Shown: piece after piece, positions 4,758-64,000 of the stretch
Layout: each line of letters starts with the position of its first letter
Numbering within the stretch: position 1 is the stretch's first letter
NCBI GenBank assembly: GCA_025094145.1
Contig: JALLLS010000015.1
Location: 124,001-188,000, forward strand
Direction of reading: 5' to 3'
Length of the DNA stretch: 64,000 nt
Origin: Spinellus fusiger
Lineage: Eukaryota; Mucoromycota; Mucoromycetes; Mucorales; Phycomycetaceae
Program-made: the position numbers and the translations under genes
The notes under the pieces: generated by a model
What the model saw: the letters and a program-made list of their open reading frames with translations, nothing else
Database searches by the model: none
What the model was told of the DNA's origin: nothing

Positions 4758-6034
4758 TTAGAAGCACCCTCTAAGGGCAATAGTAGGACCATACTCATCG
4801 TACTCTTTCTTAGTAATCCACATCTGCTGGAAGGTAGAAAGAGAAGCCAAAATGGATCCACCGATCCAAGTAGTGTATTTTCTCTCAGACGGAGCGATAA
4901 CTGTGACTCTGTTGGTATTAATAGCAAGAGCACTGACTTCCTTCTTTACACGGTCAGCTATTCCAGAATACATGGTATTGCCACCAGACAAGATAATGTT
5001 AGAGTACAAGTCTCTACGGACATCAATATCACATTTTTGGATAGAGTCATTGATGAGTTCATGGATACCTTTAGACTCAGTATTAACCATCATAGGCTGA
5101 AAAAGAATCTCAGGAGCACGGAAACTATCAAAGAAAGAAAGAGTGCACTTATAAATACCTTATATATATATATATATAGTTCTATAGAAGAAAAGTAACT
5201 TACCGTTCGCTACCAATCTTAATGACTTCACCATCAGGAAGTATGTAGCTCTTCTCAAAATCAGAAGATTGAGCAGCAGTTTGTAATTCTTGATTATAAT
5301 CAGAGGCAACATAGCACAACGTCTCCTTGATATTACAGACAATGTCAATTTCATCAGTAGTGGTGTAGGTGTGGCCACGCTTAGCCAACATGTGCACCAA
5401 GTGATTTGTCACATCACTACCTGCTATTTCCAACGTCATGGTGGTGCGGGGAAGAATATAGCCTTCGTAGACAGGAACGGCATGAGTGATACTATCACCA
5501 GAATATAGGACAACACCTGTAGTACGACCAGAGGCGTACAAAGTGAGTACAGGCTGTACAGACAAATAGGCAGCAGGCACATTGAATGTTTCGAACATAA
5601 TCTGTATCATCTTTTCACGCTCGGAATTTAGACTCAAGAGAGCATGTGTCAGAAGAACAGGGTACTTTTCGGGAGCCACATGCAATTCATTATGGAAGAT
5701 ATGGTGCCAGATCTTCTCCATGTCATCCCATTTATATATTATGCCAGATTCAATGGGGTATTTGAGAGCGAGAATCCCATGCTTGGCCTTGGCCTCCTCA
5801 CCAACATAGTAGCTATTTTTATCCATACCGACCATATCACCATAATTTTTGAGGTGGCCGACAATAGTGGGGAAGACCTATAACAAAAAGGTGTTATTAC
5901 ATACAGTAGAATAGTAGAATAGTAGAATAGTAGAGTAGTAGGTTGCTTACAGCACAGGGAGCATCGTCTCCAGCAAAACCAGCTTTGCATAACCTAGAAC
6001 CATGGTCAATAACAATGGCAGTGTTGTGAGCCAT
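4758..6034 (-). CDS. Divergent actin paralogue
   Basis: Three exons (6034-5951, 5877-5204, 5124-4758) with GT-AG introns give 374 residues, the normal actin length. Actin landmarks are clear: [57 protein letters not shown], and a terminal GCF in place of the usual KCF. The protein departs from conventional actin at the nucleotide site. Phosphate loop 1 reads DHGSRLC instead of DNGSGMC, and phosphate loop 2 reads LYSGDSITH instead of LDSGDGVTH, so the Asp normally at position 154 is Tyr. The Gln of loop [10 protein letters not shown] is kept. Filament formation with ordinary ATP turnover is therefore doubtful. It may be a specialised actin or a cap-forming relative. The start is the first ATG before the conserved N-terminus. 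Confidence 0.9.
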
Positions 6035-25035: not shown

Positions 25036-25412
25036 TTACACCGGATTCTTCTTTGATGTTTTGGTGGGTCGACTACCACTAGCCAAAGGCGACTCCTTTC
25101 TTTTGGTACCAACAGACTGTACTGTCTTGGATCGACAAAAGCATTTGGGTCGTTTGCCTTCTTCTCTTAGCCCAAAAAACGACCATGACAAAAGTTCAAT
25201 GTTGCTGCCATGTCCTGATTCCAAAAGTATTGAGAAATCATCTCATAAGAAACTCCAGCAGATTTGGTCATGATCTTCAAACATTGTTGGTTTTTGCACC
25301 TAAATAAATAATAATAATAATAATAATAATAGTAATAATAATAATAGTAATAGTAATAATAGTAATAATAATAATAGTAATAATAGTAATAATAATAATA
25401 GTAATAATAATA

Positions 25413-25490
<78 letters not shown>

Positions 25491-25716
25491 GTAATAATAA
25501 TAATAGTAGTAGTAATAATAGTAATAATAATAATAGTAATAGTAATAATAGTAATAATAATAATAGTAATAATAATAAACTTATTGGTCTTTTCTTTGAC
25601 TATCATATTTATAAGCTTTTTACCTTAAAAGACCATGACATGTCACTGTAGGATTCTTCTCTCTTCTGAAGGGTCTTGGGGTGTTGCACTTTCTTGAATT
25701 TATCAAGCTCACTGTT
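25036..25716 (-). pseudogene. Unknown coding remnant within the TIR element
   Basis: Exon A (25716-25624, open for 31 codons, with EESYSDMSWSFK) joins in phase across a long intron to exon B (from 25274, with MTKSAGVSYEMISQYFW and ATLNFCHGRFLG). Exon B hits a stop, while a second frame directly beside it continues with REEGKRPKCFCRSK and ends in a basic Ser/Lys-rich tail at 25036. The switch falls in a run of six T, so a one-base indel is likely. The intron is filled by a TAA/TAG microsatellite. I do not recognise the family. The upstream part is cut by the mariner insertion. Confidence 0.35.
25302..25582. repeat. Trinucleotide microsatellite (TAA/TAG)
   Basis: About 280 bp consisting almost only of AAT units interspersed with AGT units. 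It lies in the putative intron of the coding remnant. Confidence 0.95.
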
Positions 25717-25757: not shown

Positions 25758-27400
25758 TACACTATTTTCACTTATTATTGTCGCACTTTTGGAAAAAAAC
25801 TTAGCGCACAAGTGGAAAAAAACTTGTCGCATTAATAAATTAAAAGATGGCGTATAAGTTGGATGCGACAAATGCGACATCAATGCTTTATTGTTAAAGA
25901 GGCTTCTCTTGTAAGTAATCCTCAAATCTATCGACAGAGTATTTGCAAAACCCTCTGAGGTCACCGAGAAGAACTTGGTTAGATGCATTGGCGATTCTAG
26001 ATGACAGTGTTTCTTCTTCCAAGAGTCTTTCTCTTTTTAACCTGCTTTTGCAAACAGACCAGAATTGCTCAATGGGATTCAACTCTGGTGAGTAAGGGGG
26101 AAGATAAACACACTTGTACCCACGGCCTTCAATGAAGCTTTTAATGTCTTCATTCATGTGGATGGGGGCGTTGTCCATAATCAAGTAATTATCCTTCAAA
26201 ACATCTGGAAAATTGTCCATGACATCCATTGTATCGCTCAAGAAATTAAGATAGTGGCCAGTAACAGTGCCTTTGCTTTGTTTTTGAGAAGGCCCACTAG
26301 ATCCAGCAGTTTTTCTCTTCTTTGAAACAGGCAACATTAGAGGCCGTCTTACTTTTATGTTGACAAGGCCTTGAGCAGATGTTGCTCCCATAATAATTGT
26401 TGTTTTGGCCCTCGTTCTTGGTACTTTTACTACTGCACAAGTACCTACTTTTGACCAAGCAAAAGTACGCTTCATGTTGATGTGGAATGCCGCCTCATCT
26501 ATAAAGACACAGTTGCTCATGTAGTCCATGTCTGTCTCCATCCATTTCTGTACCCACTCCTTTCAATTCTTGATCTTTTCAGGACTATTACGATCAACTG
26601 AATGAAAATGGGCTCTTTTCAGACTGATCTTACAATTTTTGGTGACAAAATTGTAGAGAGCTGTTTTCGATATCTCTAAATCAATAAAAGACGTTCTCAA
26701 ACTCTCCATCATTTGATCCAAGACTAAAGAGGGCTGATCGTCCAATAAATCGACTAAGAATCTTTTATGGCTTTCATCCAGTAGTGCTGGTCTACCAACT
26801 GGCCTTCCACTACCTTCTTTTCTGGCAATGAATGTCTGAGGATTCTGCTGATCGTTTGAGTACCATCGCTGAGCAGTGCGTGGGTGGATTTGAAGTTTCA
26901 GCGCAGCAGCTCTGACGCTCATACCCCTTTCATAAATCAATACAAACAACTGCTCTTTTTCGGAATCTTTGTAATGCCTGTGGATACCAGGAGCTCTGTT
27001 ATCCTCTTCCGTATTGACATCTCTGTCTACGGATTGTTGTACAGTTCTTCTTTCTGGCTTCTCGGGTGGTTTGAGGTCAAGGTACATCCCGAAATTTGTA
27101 ACCGTCTCAATGGGGTACGTCTCCTCGTCTACCTCCATCTCCACTACTGTAACGGCTATGCCTTCATCATTATAGATATTTCCTTGGCCGTCTTCGTGCA
27201 CAATGTTATTCATTTTTTAAGAAAAGTAAAATGTAAGAAAACCCCAAGTACTTAGAATACGCCAGTTTTAAATCTTTTACTATGCCAAATTTTAATTAAT
27301 TAATGCGACATATTTTATCCCATTAGTACGTCAAGTTTTAATTTATTAATGCGACATATTTTTCTCTAAAAGTGCGACAATAATAAGTGAAAATAGTGTA
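25758..27400 (-). mobile_element. Tc1/mariner-type element, near-complete
   Basis: Terminal inverted repeats of at least 33 bp begin TACACTATTTTCAC at both ends, with TA at each border as expected for TA target duplication. A subterminal unit GTCGCATTAATAAATTAAAA recurs at both ends. Length is 1643 bp. It encodes one transposase on the minus strand. The flanks belong to the TACACACC-family element, so this is a nested insertion. Confidence 0.93.
25894..27213 (-). pseudogene. DD34E transposase with one internal stop
   Basis: A single frame of 440 codons runs from ATG at 27213 to a stop at 25894, broken only by a TGA at 26565-26563 (codon 217). The N-terminal half has an acidic leader and a helix-turn-helix region (GMSVRAAALKLQIHPRTAQRWY) with the GRPVGRP linker. 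The C-terminal half carries the catalytic set: Asp in VFIDEAAFH, Asp in LIMDNAPIH and Glu in NPIEQFW, with 34 residues between the second and third, which places it in the Tc1-like DD34E group. Everything else looks intact. The copy is probably inactive unless the stop is read through or is a sequencing error. Confidence 0.9.
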
Positions 27401-27893
27401 TATGGCTTATTATTCTCAAGACAAATATGGAGTACAAGGTAAGCATACTATCTCTCTTGATTGAATTATTACTAATACACTCTTTTGATATTAGGCAAGT
27501 AAAGACTTTTTTCAAGTCAGTCTCATGTGGTCTTTTCTTTCTTATATACTGTCTAGGGTCTCTAAGGTATACTCCCAAGCATGGTTATCTATCTCCCAAG
27601 GATACAGTACAAGGCTTTTAGGGTATAGATTCTATTTCTATGAAGGAATCTACTTAGGCAGTAGCTATAGTCATACTATAGTATTAGCTATACTATTACA
27701 ATAAACAACTCTATTCATCAACACTATATTCTATTGATAATACAATTTGATAGTGAGGTATTCCACAAAAGGAAATAATAATCTAGATACTTGCAAACCT
27801 TTTGATTTTAAACACAGTCCCATAAGAGGTGCGTTTTGCGTATGTAACAGGGAGATATCACTGCTTAAAGGCCAAGAAATCTTTGGGTGTGTA

Positions 27894-28263
27894 GTAAGCC
27901 TTGGTTTATCAAGAAGAAAGATAATTGGGTACTTCAACGTATTAAGGCTTATAGAATAGTAGATCGTCTCTTTACTGCTATCACGTGTAAAGTATGTCTT
28001 TATCCTTGGTATCTGTGCCTGGGCCTTGTTCCTGCTCTAGGTGGGGTGATTTTGATTCAACTTTTATAGCAACCAATATATATTTGCAGCAAGTGGTTTG
28101 GAAGAATACAATTTACACTGATGAAGTTGGCTTAATATTTTTTCTTTCTTTTTTTGGGGTCTACCTTAAAAAAGAACTCTTAAGCTGACAGATATCCTTT
28201 TCTCTTTCTCTTTCTCCTTTCTCTTTTCTCTTTAGCCGGTGATCTGTATCTTTTATACCACCA
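27894..28263. promoter_or_regulatory. Flank upstream of the unknown coiled-coil gene
   Basis: About 370 bp between the TIR end at 27893 and the ATG at 28264. It contains a CTTTCT pyrimidine tract at 28196-28234 shortly before the start codon. No gene is visible. Confidence 0.45.
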
Positions 28264-39805: not shown

Positions 39806-40611
39806 CAAAGTATTTTTTATTTGTGGGTGTTGATTGCTATTCGCGCATTGGGCATGTTAGCCACCCTATGAGAACTTTTGAAAAAATAGAATAAGCATTA
39901 AAACACTTCAAATACGAAAGTGAAAAAAAAAGAATGCAAATGAATGGGAAACAGAAGGACCGAGAAATACAAAACCTCAGATGAGGGAAAAATGATGAAA
40001 AATGAGAAATGATGGTAAAATGAGAATTATGAATAGACATCCAAAAGGCCATAAAGTCAGCAAGGAAACCAGGACACCAAAAAGATAACCGTCATCCTGT
40101 GGTAATCTGAAATCCAACGAGGGATACTTAGAGCAACTCGGACAATCTTGAGAATATATGTAGCAACTACACTAGCAGCTTCTGGCTTTGCTAAACGGGT
40201 TAAGAATGGGTGGTAGAGGAGAGATCGGAGGAGAAGTGAGGATACAGCGTCTGTTGCTGCAGGAGTCTTTGCACTCTATGGCGGCGTTGGCGTTCCCGCT
40301 CAACACACCCATCAGCAGCCTCAATGAGCAGGCTACCAGCTGATGGCTCTACCTTAAAGTCTCGAGTAGACGTGGCTCGATCAATGGCTTGCAGCAGTAT
40401 TAACAAACTGGGCCAAAGGTCTCGCCATTTAACAAAAGACTTAACCGTGCGCGGCGGAAGATTTAGACAATAGTCAATTGGATGAATGTCTTGTGGTGGT
40501 GCAGGAACTAAGAAGAACAAGAACGTGGAGCGTTCATGGTCAACAAATGTGCAAGTGAGAAAGTGGTCCCGATTGGCAGATGGGTGGCCACATTGGCAAG
40601 GTGGACTTGTG
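39806..40611 (-). mobile_element. LINE 3' end fragment, minus orientation
   Basis: On the minus strand this piece encodes the last part of a LINE polyprotein. It starts within the CxC zinc-like motif (CQCGHPSANRDHFLTC) and continues through FFLVPAPPQDIHPIDY and DGCVERERQRRHRVQ to a stop at 40200. A roughly 400-bp 3' tail runs to about 39806. The sequence is nearly identical to 42540-43341 in the opposite orientation (coordinates sum to 83147). The 5' truncation falls at the TA border of the Tc1 element at 40612. Confidence 0.85.
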
Positions 40612-41942
40612 TACAGTGGGCTAGCAAAAAAATTGGCATTTTTTTAGAGATCCGATATATTTCATATCTTACAGAGACACTTGTAGCAGTTTTCTTCCTT
40701 TCTTTTTAATAAAAGTATATCCATATTTAATTTACAATGCAACCAACAGACGATCAAAAACTTACCATTGTTAATTTTCGACAAGCAAATATGAAAGTAA
40801 AAGAAATAGCTGAAAGAACTGGAGTAAAGCTGCGAACAATTTATAATGTTCTAAATCAACAAAAGATAAGAGGAACTACCAAACGCCAAGAAGGTTCAGG
40901 AAGACCCAAAATATTCAATGAAAGAGGAATACGACACCTTCTGGACGTTTTTGGCAAGAATAGACGATTGACCTCAAGTGAGATAGTTGCAGCAATACCC
41001 GAAGAATGCAGCAAGCACACTGTTAGACGTGTACTGCATGAAGAGGGTATATTTAGCAGTGGCAAAGAAGAAACATTTTTTGAATGAAACACATCAAGAA
41101 AAAAGACTCAAGTTTGCCAAAGAACATCTCCACTGGACCATTGACATGTGGAAAAAAGTTATACGGACTGACGAAAGTAGTTTCGAAATTGGCAAGAACA
41201 GTCGAGTGGTTCACGTTTGGCATAAGGATGGAGAAGCTTACAAAAAAGATTGTCTTGCTCCCACATCCAAGAGTAGAAGATCCTCAGTTATGGTCTGGGG
41301 AGCCATTCGTCACGGTGAAAAGTCAGAACTAGTGATGCTTGAGAAGGATGAACGAAAGGCTGTTGATTTTGTCAAGAAAGTCTATGAAGAGTCATTGCTA
41401 CGTTTCTAGGGTCTAGAGTGCCACTTGATATTGATGGAAGATGGAGCACCCACTCACAAAAGTATTGTAGCAAGTGATTGAAAAATGGAGAGAGGAATCG
41501 ATAGTTTGGAGTGGCCTGATCAATCACTCGATCTGAACCCCATTGAAAACCTTTGGATACAGACAAAAGACAAGGTTCAGGAGAGATGCAATGGTACTGT
41601 CAAGACAGACAAGTTCAAAAATATTATACAAGAAGCCTGGGATTCCTTTGAGCTAAAAACATGGAGTTCTTTGATTGAGACAATGCCAGCACGAATGCAA
41701 GAAGTCATCAAGAACAAGGGTGGGAGTACCCATTATTAAAGCTATATTTTTAATAATTTTTTATAAGTAAATGTAAAAATAAATTACATATACATATTCT
41801 ATAGCCTTTCTTTAACATAATATGAGCTTTATTACAGTAGAAAATACGTTTTATTTCTCTTGATACAGGAAAAACACTGTATTGATGATATGAAATCAAT
41901 CGGATTTTTTCAAATTGCCAATTTTTTTGCTACCCCACTGTA
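40612..41942 (+). mobile_element. Tc1-like element at the centre of a LINE palindrome
   Basis: The ends are inverted repeats starting TACAGTGGG(C/G)TAGCAA and continuing with AAAAAATTGGCA, with TA at each border (40612-40613 and 41941-41942). The element is 1331 bp. It differs in TIR and protein from the 25758 element, so at least two Tc1/mariner families are present. Confidence 0.9.
40737..41739 (+). pseudogene. Tc1-like transposase, frameshifted
   Basis: The first frame (40737-41087) holds the HTH region (MKVKEIAERTGVKLRTIYNV) and a GSGRPK linker. A second frame carries WKKVIRTDESSFEIG with the first catalytic Asp and VMVWGAI, ending at 41409. A third gives LMEDGAPTHKS (second Asp; the preceding context is altered) and then SLDLNPIENLW with the third acidic residue, running to a stop at 41739. 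Two frameshifts and at least one stop inactivate it. The order and spacing match Tc1 transposases of about 340 residues. Confidence 0.85.
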
Positions 41943-44152: not shown

Positions 44153-44836
44153 CACGAAAGCACGCTATATGTATTTTTTAACGAAGAATTTACAAATGAA
44201 AACTCTGAAAAACTCAAAGAAGACCTTGAAAAACTTTGTGGGTTGGAGATTTGCTATACCGATGACCCCAATAAGCCCATGCTCCAAACTAAGCTAAAAG
44301 TAAATGGTTTTCCATCCTACTACCATCGATACAAAGATGACCTCCCAAAATCAACCAATCTTCAAGAACAAATTATTATAAGTAAGTGATAAAGAAGAGT
44401 GTTTTGTTATGTATTAATTTAACGACTTTACTAGATAACCAAAGACAACTTATCCAATACCTGAACAAAGTATATCGATCTGGCCAGCCGGTGGATAGTG
44501 ACATTTACGAACAAAAGCAAATATCAATGAATCAGATTTACTCAGAAACTGTTGTAATTACTGATCTATTTGATGAGAAAACACAGAGATCATTTTCTAC
44601 ATGGTGCGGCACAGCCAAGTTAGATCTAACGCTTGCTGACCAAACCTGCAAAATTCAAAAAAACGATGTCTCCAAAACCAAGATAAGATACCGCCCCCTT
44701 TGGATTCTAAAAAGCACACATCGAGGTATATTATACTAGTTAGTAAAACTGATACTTTCATACCTTTGATTTTCATGTTTTTTTCTTTTTTACTGTAGAA
44801 TCAGTAGCTACACACCAGGAGGTCTTTAGGATATAA
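44153..44836 (+). pseudogene. Unknown multi-exon gene fragment truncated by a TIR end
   Basis: Three frames join in phase through consensus GT-AG introns (44153-44381, 44435-44725, 44799-44836) into 185 codons with no start. Exon A includes ENSEKLKEDLEKLCGLEICY and VNGFPSYYHRYKDD. Exon B includes LIQYLNKVYRSGQPVDSD, TVVITDLFDEKTQRSF and KIRYRPLWIL. Coding character is convincing (charged, few repeats, good splice sites) but I recognise no family. The last exon reads out through TACACACCAGGAGG at 44809 and stops 28 bases into the TIR sequence, so the original 3' part was replaced by a repeat end. It could be a host gene fragment or part of another mobile element. Confidence 0.45.
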
Positions 44837-44941
44837 AAGGAAATAGTCGAAATACAATTGTTTAGAAATGACAAATCGATTTGAAAAGGAGCAAAAAAAG
44901 TGAAATATATTCATGTTAGCTCTTAAATAAAGATTATTATG
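44809..44941 (-). repeat. TACACACC-family 3' end, truncated
   Basis: 133 bp matching the 3' terminal region at 49915-50045 (GGATATAAAAG, ATAGTCGA, ACAATTGTTTA, TCTTAAATAAAGATTATTATG). It is cut exactly where the next family member begins at 44942. Confidence 0.85.
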
Positions 44942-46929
44942 TACACACCAGGAGATTTTTCTGGCCTTTAAGCGAGGATATCTCCTTTCTTTTACGTCTA
45001 AAATTTTCTTGCCTTTTATGGAACTGCATTTAAAACGAAAGGTTTGTGGATATCAAAAATAATATTTCCTTTTGTGGATACCTCAATATCAAATTGTATT
45101 ATCAGTAAAATATATTGTTTATTGTCGTCTTTGATCTTAGATATCAAAGGAATCCGGCCAGTTAACGTGTGGTTAAACTCTGCTCTTTATTCATTCAAAT
45201 GTACACTTCTTTTATACTTATTTTCTCTTAATATTCTACTACTATAAGATATGATGTCAGGTATACATTTGCTGATATGCTGCGAGAGTGTCAATGACAA
45301 TGCTTTGTAGTATTCTGTGTTGCTCACGCATCACTACTACCTTTCGTCATTTTCCTTTTTAGTTGCTCAGGGATACAAATGACGAAACATCCATTTTTGG
45401 AAAGCAGTCTTACGACATTATGAATAAAATTGTTTATTATAATAATGTAGCTAATACTATACTATTACTATAGCTACTGCTGCTCTAGGCGTATTAATTC
45501 ATAGCAATAGAATCCACACCCTAAAAGTCTTATACCTTGTTCTTGGGAGATAGATAAATATGCTCAGGAGTATACCCTAGACACCCTAGACACCTTAGAC
45601 AGTATAGAAGGAAGAATAGACCACCTGAGACTGACTTGAGAAAGAGTCTTAACTTATCTAATAACAGAAGAGTGTATTAGTAATAATCCAATCAAGAGAG
45701 ATAAATGTATAGATATTGGGTCTCTAGCAGGGACTACAAAATAGAGGTTTGGATACAAAGGCTAGTCTGGGGAAATCAAAGAGGGTACATGAACAGGAAC
45801 ACAACACACGATTTGAGCACAACGGGTAACTAGGCAACTGTTCTTTAAGGAATTCTTTTTCTTTCTAGAATGTTGTTGTAGTCTGCATTACTTTGGTGGT
45901 TCTGATCAAGCAAATGACTTGTGAAAATTCGTATTGTTCTCTTCTGTTTGGATATTAATACCTGCTAATTATACTGTCTGTTGTTCTTTATAACTTCCAT
46001 CCTCTTTAACTTGTTTGCCTTTGTCTGGCATATAAACCAACAGCTGTGATATGGTGAGTGTTTGTGTATGTTTATTATGTCTGACATGTTAGTCAGTTTC
46101 TATTGTATATGATTTTACTATAATAAACCCAGTGAATCCGTTACAAAGGCAAAGGCAAGAAGAAGGTGCCAGTGCAAGGGTAATACGAAATACATAGAGA
46201 GTGCATTAATACATCTCGAACTCATTATTTTTACTATTATTTTATTATTAAAAGGGGGTATTGGCACCTAAAAGGATTGGGGTACAATCCTACCAAGCTG
46301 CCAGTCGTTGCTTATGGCACAGGAATAAAGGTAAAAGATGGTGCCAAGTTTAAAGGTCATCGTGTTGGTTTGACGAGAGTTTTATATCAATCATTGAAAA
46401 AGAGACAAAAAGATGGAGATCTTCTTCTGGTTGATGTTGATGAGTTCCGAACATCGAGAGTAAACATGATTGTCCTCTTACCCAATATGAAAGGCTCTTC
46501 TAACAGTTACTCTGTTTTATTTTTTGTTCTCGAGATCTGCCACACTTATAACACAAATATCCTCACCAAAGTATTAGTGAATTTCAACAGTATCCACGCT
46601 TGCCAAGATTATGGAATTGTTTGGAACAGAGATGTGAATGCATCAAAGAATATCTATACAATTGCAGAAGTGGTCTTAAAGAGTCACCACCGACCAGTTC
46701 CATTCTGTAGAAAAGAATAGATATTCTTATTTGTATTCATATTATATATCACCATATCGAAGGTGGTTTCCTATGGGATTCAGATATCTACAGGTAAATC
46801 TACATAATAATCTTTATTTAAGAACATGAATACATCTTAATTTATTTTTGCTCCTCAAATCAATGTGTCATTTCTTAAACAATTGTATCTCGACTATTTT
46901 TTTATATCCTAAATATCTCCTGGTGTGTA
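44942..46929 (+). mobile_element. TACACACC-family element carrying a Fanzor-like fragment, plus copy
   Basis: The 5' end (TACACACCAGGAGATTTTTC, TGGCCTTTAAGCGAGG) is at 44942 and the 3' end (AAATATCTCCTGGTGTGTA) at 46929, so both termini are inverted repeats with TA borders. Length is 1988 bp. From about 45418 on it is the near-exact inverted partner of 49915-51426 (coordinates sum to 96844). A segment of about 300 bp (45117-45417) is absent from the partner. The Fanzor/TnpB-like fragment lies near the 3' end. Confidence 0.85.
46258..46720 (+). pseudogene. Fanzor/TnpB-like nuclease C-terminal fragment, plus copy
   Basis: The open frame carries LPVVAYGTGIKVKDG, KGHRVGLTRVLYQSLKKR, LLVDVDEFRTSRV and GIVWNRDVNASKNIY. 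The order VDEFRTSR(V) then WNRDVNA(S)(K)N matches the zinc-ribbon and RuvC-III region of Fanzor proteins, the eukaryotic relatives of TnpB that act as RNA-guided DNA nucleases. The last acidic RuvC residue (Asp in RDVNA) is kept. The zinc ribbon is damaged: the first cysteine pair is replaced by a frameshifted stretch, and the later one reads ACQDY instead of CxxC. RuvC-I, RuvC-II and the N-terminal domains are absent or unrecognisable. The TTG at 46277 is not a credible start. It is non-functional as it stands. Confidence 0.7.
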
Positions 46930-47295
46930 AGAGCAGAAGCACACACAACAAAACACGTTCCGTTGAAGCGTCATGAGATAAAAATAGGTTCTGACTTGGC
47001 AGGGACACGGAAAATAATACGTGGCCATGAACAGTTTATATTTATATATACATTTGTACATTTTATACAAATATGTCTATAGATGTAGATGGGTAGGTCA
47101 CAGGATGTCCTTGGGCTTGAACGCGTTTTGCCGTAACCATGGTTTCTATTTTTAGAGAAAAAGACAGGTTCACTCACTGTCTTGAATCACGTGCCATGGA
47201 GTTTATAGTCCTCGATTTTCTCTGATCCTTCTGCTATATAATTCATCCTTAACAAGAGGTCCTATTGTACTGCAAAAACAAACAGACAAGTGAGA
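46930..47295. promoter_or_regulatory. Upstream region of the CaMK gene
   Basis: 366 bp between the TIR end and the kinase ATG; no coding frame. The transposon end therefore lies within probable promoter distance of the kinase. Confidence 0.5.
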
Positions 47296-48865
<1,570 letters not shown>

Positions 48866-49914
48866 AAGGTAGACCTTACAAGTTTGATCTTTCTATTTTA
48901 CATTGGCGGGTATATTCATGTTATTGTTGTGTAGTTGAAACATTCTTAGAAGTCCACAGTTATGAACCACCAAAGCAATTCATGTTATCTAAGAAAAATA
49001 GTGCATGGCCAAACTACTTTTGTATTCTATGGATTTATACCTTTGACATTTATGTGTAAGAATATTATCTATTATTATTTTGTATCTTTCTATTTAGACA
49101 CTTACCAAATATATTTGTATACACACCAAAAAAAAGATTATCAGAATATCGTATAATATGATGTATCCATGAGATCATTGCATGTGTTACAGCCAACTGT
49201 GTAGATTCTGATTCTGATTCTTATTATTTTTAAAGTAATAATAATAGAGAAGATAGAGTCTACTCCTAATCTTTATGATGTGAGTGTCTTGGCAAAATAA
49301 AGACTGATATACTTTATAAAGAACTATGCTAGTATGGTTATTATTTGTTTCATTGTGTTAAAACAGTGTTATTAGGATGCCCTTGGATCCAAGACAATAA
49401 ATATTTGTTTTTGTAGTATAGCATGTATCTTATTCTATAGATCAACCAATAAAGATTTCAATCTATACTAGTCTGAATATATATTATCTATTGCACTTAT
49501 ATAACAAGCTGATTCTAATACCCTGTTTTGGCTCCTGAGAATATGAAGATCGAAGAAGAGAAATATGTCTCCTGTAGCAACTCCTAAATAAAGACGATCT
49601 CAGGTGCATAGAATAGAGTAGATTGCACGGTATATATTTATGTGTAGTGTTATGAATACATACACCTAGAGGTATGTTTTCATTCAATTATATACCCACT
49701 CTTTTCTCCTGTGCAGCATAGTGATCGTACTATAAGTGACTCTTTATTCTATGAGTAAATCGAAAAAGATAGACCAGAAAAATGAAAATGGAAAATAAGG
49801 GGCGAAGAATAAAAAAAAAGTGTGAATCATGATATTCTATATATCTTCTATTCATTGCCATATCTGCTATATCTTCAAGTATTGTTTATTATTATTAAAA
49901 ATCATATAATCACC
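48866..49914. other. AT-rich intergenic stretch
   Basis: About 1 kb from the kinase stop to the inner end of the second Fanzor-bearing element. AT-rich with no supported gene. Confidence 0.5.
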
Positions 49915-51637
49915 TACACACCAGGAGATATTTAGGATATAAAAAAATAGTCGAGATACAATTGTTTAAGAAATGACACATTGATTTGAGGAGCAAAAAT
50001 AAATTAAGATGTATTCATGTTCTTAAATAAAGATTATTATGTAGATTTACCTGTAGATATCTGAATCCCATAGGAAACCACCTTCGATATGGTGATATAT
50101 AATATGAATACAAATAAGAATATCTATTCTTTTCTACAGAATGGAACTGGTCGGTGGTGACTCTTTAAGACCACTTCTGCAATTGTATAGATATTCTTTG
50201 ATGCATTCACATCTCTGTTCCAAACAATTCCATAATCTTGGCAAGCGTGGATACTGTTGAAATTCACTAATACTTTGGTGAGGATATTTGTGTTATAAGT
50301 GTGGCAGATCTCGAGAACAAAAAATAAAACAGAGTAACTGTTAGAAGAGCCTTTCATATTGGGTAAGAGGACAATCATGTTTACTCTCGATGTTCGGAAC
50401 TCATCAACATCAACCAGAAGAAGATCTCCATCTTTTTGTCTCTTTTTCAATGATTGATATAAAACTCTCGTCAAACCAACACGATGACCTTTAAACTTGG
50501 CACCATCTTTTACCTTTATTCCTGTGCCATAAGCAACGACTGGCAGCTTGGTAGGATTGTACCCCAATCCTTTTAGGTGCCAATACCCCCCTTTTAATAA
50601 TAAAATAATAGTAAAAATAATGAGTTCGAGATGTATTAATGCACTCTCTATGTATTTCGTATTACCCTTGCACTGGCACCTTCTTCTTGCCTTTGCCTTT
50701 GTAACGGATTCACTGGGTTTATTATAGTAAAATCATATACAATAGAAACTGACTAACATGTCAGACATAATAAACATACACAAACACTCACCATATCACA
50801 GCTGTTGGTTTATATGCCAGACAAAGGCAAACAAGTTAAAGAGGATGGAAGTTATAAAGAACAACAGACAGTATAATTAGCAGGTATTAATATCCAAACA
50901 GAAGAGAACAATACGAATTTTCACAAGTCATTTGCTTGATCAGAACCACCAAAGTAATGCAGACTACAACAACATTCTAGAAAGAAAAAGAATTCCTTAA
51001 AGAACAGTTGCCTAGTTACCCGTTGTGCTCAAATCGTGTGTTGTGTTCCTGTTCATGTACCCTCTTTGATTTCCCCAGACTAGCCTTTGTATCCAAACCT
51101 CTATTTTGTAGTCCCTGCTAGAGACCCAATATCTATACATTTATCTCTCTTGATTGGATTATTACTAATACACTCTTCTGTTATTAGATAAGTTAAGACT
51201 CTTTCTCAAGTCAGTCTCAGGTGGTCTATTCTTCCTTCTATACTGTCTAAGGTGTCTAGGGTGTCTAGGGTATACTCCTGAGCATATTTATCTATCTCCC
51301 AAGAACAAGGTATAAGACTTTTAGGGTGTGGATTCTATTGCTATGAATTAATACGCCTAGAGCAGCAGTAGCTATAGTAATAGTATAATATTAGCTACAT
51401 TATTACTCGCTATATTATTACAATAAACAATTTTATCCATCAATAATTTTATTCATAAACACTATATTTTACTGATAATACAATTTGATATTGAGATATT
51501 CCACAAAAGGAAATAATTATTTAGATACTTGCAAACCTTTTGATTTTAAACACAGAAACATAAAACGCAAGAAAATTTTAGACGTAAAAGGAAGGAGATA
51601 TCCTCGCTTAAAAGCCAGAAAAATCTCCTGGTGTGTA
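49915..51637 (-). mobile_element. TACACACC-family element carrying a Fanzor-like fragment, minus copy
   Basis: The 3' end is at 49915 (TACACACCAGGAGATATTT) and the 5' end at 51637 (AAATCTCCTGGTGTGTA), each with TA. Length is 1723 bp. It is the inverted twin of 44942-46929 without that copy's extra segment near its 5' end. The 147-codon Fanzor-like frame is identical at the protein level in both. Confidence 0.88.
50124..50586 (-). pseudogene. Fanzor/TnpB-like nuclease C-terminal fragment, minus copy
   Basis: Exact protein-level copy of the fragment at 46258-46720 in the opposite direction, including the damaged zinc-ribbon part and the WNRDVNASKN motif. Because the same defects occur in both, the lesions predate the duplication. 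Neither copy can supply its own active nuclease. If the TIR element moved recently, the enzyme came from elsewhere, or the pair arose by segmental inversion rather than transposition. Confidence 0.7.
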
Positions 51638-63732: not shown

Positions 63733-64000
63733 TACACACCAGGAGATTATTCTGGCCTTTAAGCGATGATATCTCCTTTTATGTCACAATTAGAAATGAC
63801 CTTTTACGGAACTGTGTTTGAAATCAAAGGGTTTGTAGGTATCTATATTATTATTTCCTTTTATGGATACTTCACTATCAAATTATATTATCAATAGAAT
63901 ATAGTGTTTACGAATAAAATTGTTTATTGTAATAGTATAGATAATACTATAGTATGATTATAGCTACTGCCCAAGCGCATTCCCTCATAGCAATAGAATC
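63733..64000 (+). mobile_element. TACACACC-family element, 5' end (runs off the window)
   Basis: TACACACCAGGAGATTATTC with TGGCCTTTAAGCGATG marks the 5' end. The following 250 bp match the 5' sub-terminal region at 51637-51370 and 27893-27640 (ATGGATACTTC, ATCAAATTATATTATCA, ATAGCTACTG, ATAGCAATAGAATC). The rest lies outside the window. Confidence 0.85.

Follow-up and report, generated by a model that had tools for sequence, protein, structure and literature searches.

Fanzor genes in fungal transposons (PMC3627910) and gene conversion between inverted arms (PMC3723533 and PMC5490193) are already known, as far as the portions of these sources considered here extend. The former include the Fanzor1 elements of Mucorales (ROr-4, PBl-3, and MCi-4) and the mariner-type Fanzor1 element PUl-4 (Bao and Jurka 2013, PMC3627910). 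Here, we describe a pair of inverted transposon copies in a window of Spinellus fusiger DNA, i.e., the whole stretch of 64,000 nucleotides analyzed (C57:124001-188000), which lies in a 536-kb contig (C57) of a 38.1-Mb assembly of 197 contigs. Like the Mucorales elements in the part of PMC3627910 considered, the Spinellus elements are TIR transposons with a Fanzor-like gene and, apparently, without a transposase, and they end in TA, as does PUl-4, for which the same part reports Fanzor1 as the sole product and TA duplications at the flanks. Unlike the Spinellus copies, which are TA-ended, degenerate, and members of an abundant family, the Mucorales elements described there are MuDr elements with 9-bp duplications. 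The Fanzor ghost loci of Spizellomyces, in the portion of PMC10432273 considered, similarly retain an element end without a working protein, but they keep the omega RNA, whereas no conserved RNA fold was found at the Spinellus right ends. As to the arrangement of the copies, human Y palindrome P6 has near-identical inverted arms kept alike by conversion, as is proposed here, with a mean tract of 2,068 bp (compared with 0.4 to 2 kb here), although P6 is one large chromosomal palindrome and the Spinellus pairs are many short, dispersed fungal transposon pairs (PMC3723533, in part). In the parthenogenetic animals Folsomia and Adineta, the prevailing orientation of within-scaffold blocks is likewise inverted (in Folsomia, 11 of 15), with gene conversion discussed, but these are collinear gene blocks with a wide Ks range rather than transposon copies of 1 to 2 kb (PMC5490193, in part). 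In the open-licence papers searched, neither this element nor homogenised inverted pairs of transposons in Mucorales were described. To that extent, what is new here is the number of short, homogenised inverted pairs of transposon copies dispersed over the genome of a mucoralean fungus.

The two elements occupy positions 44942-46929 (+; arm 1, 1,988 bp) and 49915-51637 (-; arm 2, 1,723 bp) of the window. Their TACACACC...GGTGTGTA ends lie exactly at 44942/46929 and 49915/51637, the termini of both arms reading TACACACCAGGAG / CTCCTGGTGTGTA (with exact TACACACCAGGAG at both ends of arm 1), and the sequence outside differs between the arms. The preliminary description of this DNA, made from the letters alone, was therefore right to report two complete TIR elements in opposite orientation; the distance of 4.7 kb that it gave has to be replaced, with the inner ends 2,985 bp apart and an outer span of 6,696 bp. 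The spacer (46930-49914; 2,985 bp), for which no second copy was found in a self-comparison of the window, holds a CaMK/CDPK-like protein kinase gene of several exons (47290-48865, +), also reported previously, with PF00069 matches in four exon-like frames and with CaMK1/CDPK as the nearest solved chains in the PDB when one kinase exon was searched. Six exact 13-mer TIR ends occur in the window, and 10 matches were found at up to two mismatches versus 1.07 expected, which excludes chance. Genome-wide, exact copies of the 13-mer number 1,016 (509 forward and 507 reverse) versus one for a reversed control, so the TIR family is abundant. With the whole element as query, 1,838 first-look candidates were obtained, and among the best 40, which were scored, copies other than the pair were 85 to 92% identical over the right 1.2 kb. 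At loci with family ends the outermost element bases are TA, with varied bases beyond; together with the TIRs, this fits a Tc1/mariner-type TIR transposon, TA being either a target duplication or part of the TIR. The only longer TIR-bounded stretch scanned (L078, G000:C4:85993-90041; 4.05 kb) gave no transposase match, the two separate element ends in it enclosing a gene for a peptidase M49. DDE_3 transposase genes occur elsewhere in the genome, and the window itself contains a DDE_3 fragment in a 222-codon open frame (26014-26244, -; C57:150014-150244), a minisatellite with 9-, 12-, and 15-bp steps (25244-25645), and two more left-end pieces of the same TIR family (27449-27894 and 63733-64000). 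Moreover, an inverted right-end fragment of another family copy (44809-44941, -; 133 bp) abuts the left TIR of arm 1; it is 85% identical to the right ends of the arms and up to 96% identical to those of other copies, and its break falls precisely on the TA at the start of arm 1, with no reciprocal half seen after 46929.

Both elements contain the same broken gene, recognized previously as a 147-codon frame and located at 46277-46720 (+) in arm 1 and 50124-50567 (-) in arm 2. A tblastn comparison with P0001, the NCBI gene model of a sister copy, and an exon join resolved the arm 1 copy into a putative degenerate Fanzor/TnpB exon with VDEFRTSRV, which includes a RuvC-II-type glutamate (46257-46505, +), a GT..AG stretch of 72 nt that is likely an intron and is skipped by the P0001 model (46506-46577, +), and a putative degenerate Fanzor exon with the RuvC-III motif WNRDVNASKN and a PF07282 match (46578-46720, +). 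Because the 147-codon frame reads through these 72 nt, it is evidently not a natural exon; the frame stays open after the exon join. The frame matches PF07282 with an E value of 2.2e-5 and a score of 25.0 bits, narrowly missing the 26.3-bit cut-off, while P0001 reaches 27.9 bits, and of the 150 genome matches scored among 457 candidates, 3 fall below the cut-off and the best attains 37.3 bits. This HMM check, with relatives above the cut-off elsewhere in the genome, supports the proposed kinship of the arms' gene fragment with TnpB/Fanzor. As to the Fanzor subtype, the PDB comparison was weak (best LaTranC, E 0.0016; SpuFz1, E 0.3), and NCBIfam guided_TnpB scored far below its cut-off. In addition to VDEFRT and WNRDVNASKN, P0001 contains within residues 1 to 127 the sequence GVDLGRKHIFAA, which we take to be the RuvC-I motif, reading DLG instead of DPG. 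No match to these residues was found in the arms by tblastn, and the arms align only from residue 128 on. In Fanzor proteins, the rearranged RuvC-II glutamate precedes the first cysteine of the zinc finger by six residues (PMC10711439); in the arms, the glutamate of VDEFRTSRV is present, the cysteine expected after it is absent, and the second knuckle reads CQDY. Of the zinc-ribbon/RuvC-III signature claimed previously, the RuvC-III-type WNRDVNASKN and the PF07282 match hold, but the zinc-ribbon cysteines are missing or broken. The Fanzor of the arms thus appears to be a relic of the family and not a working member, and because neither frame retains RuvC-I or the zinc-ribbon cysteines, it is predicted to have had no part in the homogenisation of these two copies. 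The genome-wide search for fuller copies confirmed an abundant family but yielded no unbroken full-length gene in the longer copies read (2.4 to 2.5 kb). P0001 also matches open frames of up to 376 codons in C164, C13, C179, and C127 (frame extents only), and a working Fanzor may exist elsewhere in the genome. An omega RNA at the element 3' end found no support: among the 240-bp right ends of 28 copies, aligned and folded, one of 31 predicted pairs had a two-sided change and one short hairpin was kept, five single folds had energies equal to those of shuffles (z -0.03 to 0.65), and an Rfam search of the right ends returned 0 matches.

End-to-end alignment of the arms revealed a mosaic, with 51 events in 1,720 aligned bases, of which the inner 1,489 account for 2 and the outer 231 for 49. 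The homogenised tract (45440-46929, + in arm 1; 49915-51405, - in arm 2) departs from identity at a single mismatch and a single gap over 1,491 columns, while the outer left ends differ by ∼20 to 21%; none of 2,000 permutations reached this clustering (Fisher 1.6e-42). A 315-bp segment (45123-45437, +) is present in arm 1 only, being absent from arm 2 and from the related loci L008 and L009, with partial matches of 75 to 86% in C141 (L063) and L081. Near-identity therefore gives way abruptly to family-level divergence within homologous sequence, as it does in gene-converted inverted repeats. The near-perfect palindrome reported in the preliminary description is real over the tract but does not extend to the outer ends, which are ∼20% apart, or to the one-sided 315-bp segment, and the "identical lesions" adduced there are not independent evidence because the whole tract is common to both arms. 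The suggestions of a mobile composite and of a fold-back structure found no support, since at most of 30 loci there is a single element that carries each kind of end once, and the pair's own outer ends differ by about one-fifth. A recent segmental duplication does not fit either, because the four flanks outside the elements share nothing in the self-comparison. The spacer may have been inverted by crossing-over, but this would not make the arms identical. Regarding direction, arm 2 stays collinear with L008 (89.3%) and L009 (88.2%) for 497 bp spanning the junction, whereas in arm 1 a long left-end form gives way to the shared tract at the junction; we therefore infer, with moderate confidence, that arm 2 was the likely donor and arm 1 the likely recipient.

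The preliminary description overlooked the mosaic and also the recurrence of near-identical inverted pairs in the genome. In a sample of 55 copies chosen for their similarity or domain score (including the window pair and omitting L051-L053, which equal L001-L003, and L058-L059, overlapping loci of the near-identical inverted C117b pair), exact shared tracts of at least 300 bp were found in 7 of 37 same-contig pairs versus 6 of 1,448 cross-contig pairs (p 5e-9), and in 6 of 36 same-contig pairs without the window pair (p 1e-7). With 20 inverted and 17 direct among these 37 pairs, the background orientation is even. Twenty same-contig pairs (16 inverted and 4 direct) were then compared in DNA, comprising 19 of the 20 equal-score clusters (the direct trio C176:567998/574035/609114 being left out) and C115, with nearly equal scores. 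Tracts of 435 to 2,020 bp with no more than two events were present in 18 of the 20; in C68 and C187 they reached no more than 91 and 272 bp. Since equal scores across the right part of the gene were the basis of selection, tracts located there are favoured. The differences were significantly clustered in 13 of the 20, including C57 (p 0.04 or less), while six showed no more than one event over the aligned stretch, too few for the test, and C68 was not significant. Differing sequence flanks the tract on both sides in C2 and C119, and differing ends appear in C117a and C157 in a looser alignment and are trimmed in a stricter one. C131a, C131b, and C117b are near-identical over all aligned sequence, and homogenisation in the cross-contig pair C30/C169 equals that of the local pairs. 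Two other arrangements were seen: an inverted Fanzor pair at G000:C172:95944-111375 whose matches recur at 13,270-bp spacing, as if tandemly duplicated, and three equal-score copies of the C112 half-element (G000:C112:243832, 300360, and 304829), two of them inverted 4.5 kb apart.

Same-contig clusters of the Fanzor family with equal E value and bits were inverted in 15 cases and direct in 5 among the matches listed (p 0.04), or 15 versus 6 (p 0.08) when the near-tie C35 is counted (a direct pair with equal bits and E values of 7.0e-6 and 7.1e-6); the inverted bias within this family alone is weak. Equal-score clusters of DDE_3 mariner transposases were inverted in 12 cases and direct in 1 among the matches listed, and both families together show an inverted excess of 27 versus 6 (two-sided binomial p 0.0003; 27 versus 7 and p 0.0008 with C35). 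These counts were made by eye in the best 150 candidates of 457, 1,003, and 1,544, an equal score not being proven identity, and the tallies leave out the mixed clusters C172 and C167, the mixed C112 trio, and two clusters with unequal E values, C35 (direct) and C115 (inverted). Two of the 12 inverted DDE_3 pairs were checked in DNA; C124 is identical at 495 of 495 positions, and C150 is 98.6% identical over 1,590 with a tandem-repeat tail. Within 100 kb in the 55-copy sample, tracts of at least 150 bp occurred in 7 of 12 inverted and 2 of 8 direct pairs (p 0.20). No same-contig equal-score pairs were found for RVT_1 (best 150 of 477) or Pkinase (best 124 of 440), which are weak controls, as both families hold few near-identical copies at all.

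In the self-comparison of the window, the three best-matching repeat pairs are each inverted, namely, the arms, 1-791/3957-4747, and 39799-40601/42546-43355. The second pair is 99.87% identical with 3.2 kb between its copies and extends, at 99.2%, left beyond the window to C57:123404, taking in the 3' part of an actin gene (4758-5342, - in the right copy). Of the actin profile, the left copy covers positions 231-410 alone and the right one also 29-277; an actin 3' part and 791 bp downstream of it are thus present twice, inverted, and host DNA can take part in inverted near-identical pairs. The third pair, presumably LINE-like, is 94.3% identical, with 2 differences in the inner ∼440 bp and ∼58 in the outer 400; its 311-codon frame gave no Pfam match. 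Part of its spacer is filled by a Tc1/mariner-like element (∼40602-41940; Pfam matches below cut-off).

We consider it probable (roughly 0.58) that 1.5 kb of one old degenerate copy was overwritten from its inverted neighbour by ectopic gene conversion. A double-strand break in the copy at 44942-46929 would have been repaired by copying from that at 49915-51637, with the conversion tract extending to the inner TIR, where homology stops, and the same event may have occurred in many other neighbouring pairs. Between direct repeats, conversion would compete with deletion of the intervening DNA, whereas inverted repeats would only convert or flip DNA; inverted pairs would then accumulate because direct pairs are also lost by deletion. 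Some observations count against conversion: the cut fragment 44809-44941, without its other half beyond 46929, is unexplained by a simple event, C30/C169 is equally homogenised across contigs, the actin pair is a piece of host gene and not two transposon copies, and C131a, C131b, and C117b resemble the outcome of local transposition. Recent cut-and-paste transposition to nearby sites would give identical copies, the ends of which would later be overwritten by conversion or crossing-over with third copies, and the enrichment of near-identical pairs on the same contig and the near-identity of C131a from TIR to TIR, and nearly so of C117a, between unrelated flanks agree with this. Such overwriting, however, needs donors younger than the pair, and no sequence reaching 99% turned up for the outer end of arm 2 (95% in the best 40 of 1,367 candidates) or for the diverged half of C112:43867 (best 96%), although for the outer end of arm 1, searched within the whole element only (90% in the best 40 of 1,838), a closer source and a younger donor may exist. 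The tracts of C2 and C119, bordered on both sides by differing sequence, also speak against local transposition, which we regard as unlikely, and we know of no orientation bias of local hops.

Replication template switching, by which short stretches would be copied inverted nearby and the transposons and the actin fragment would merely be the DNA copied, was kept as an alternative because the actin pair involves host DNA, and it would account for locality and inversion together. Against it, the shared sequence ends at the TIR in C57, C117a, and C131a, and homology persists through the non-identical part of C57 and C117a, so that the two element copies would predate homogenisation; the best 124 of 440 kinase matches, moreover, contain no same-contig equal-score pair. 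We judge template switching to be quite improbable. Still less credible, and indeed very improbable, is an assembly or polishing artefact in which one copy was written from reads of the other: identical stretches are the expected product of collapse, but the arms retain 2 differences and a 315-bp difference in length, their flanks within the 536-kb contig are unrelated, other scored copies remain resolved at 85 to 92%, such pairs are lacking among the RVT_1 and kinase matches listed, and collapse would not favour inverted pairs.

Beyond the proposed ectopic gene conversion at this locus, a standing regime of the genome can be suggested tentatively, as a somewhat doubtful extension, in which repair copies between mirror-image repeats 2 to 70 kb apart, across unrelated transposon families and pieces of host genes, and many near-perfect hairpin loci persist that could feed RNA silencing if transcribed through. 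If conversion between inverted neighbours is indeed common, dating transposons by copy identity would mislead here, considering that near-identical pairs may be old rewritten copies rather than new insertions. Moreover, this fungus would offer many natural loci for measuring orientation- and distance-dependent gene conversion, and the role of inverted transposon pairs as hairpin sources for RNA interference would become testable.
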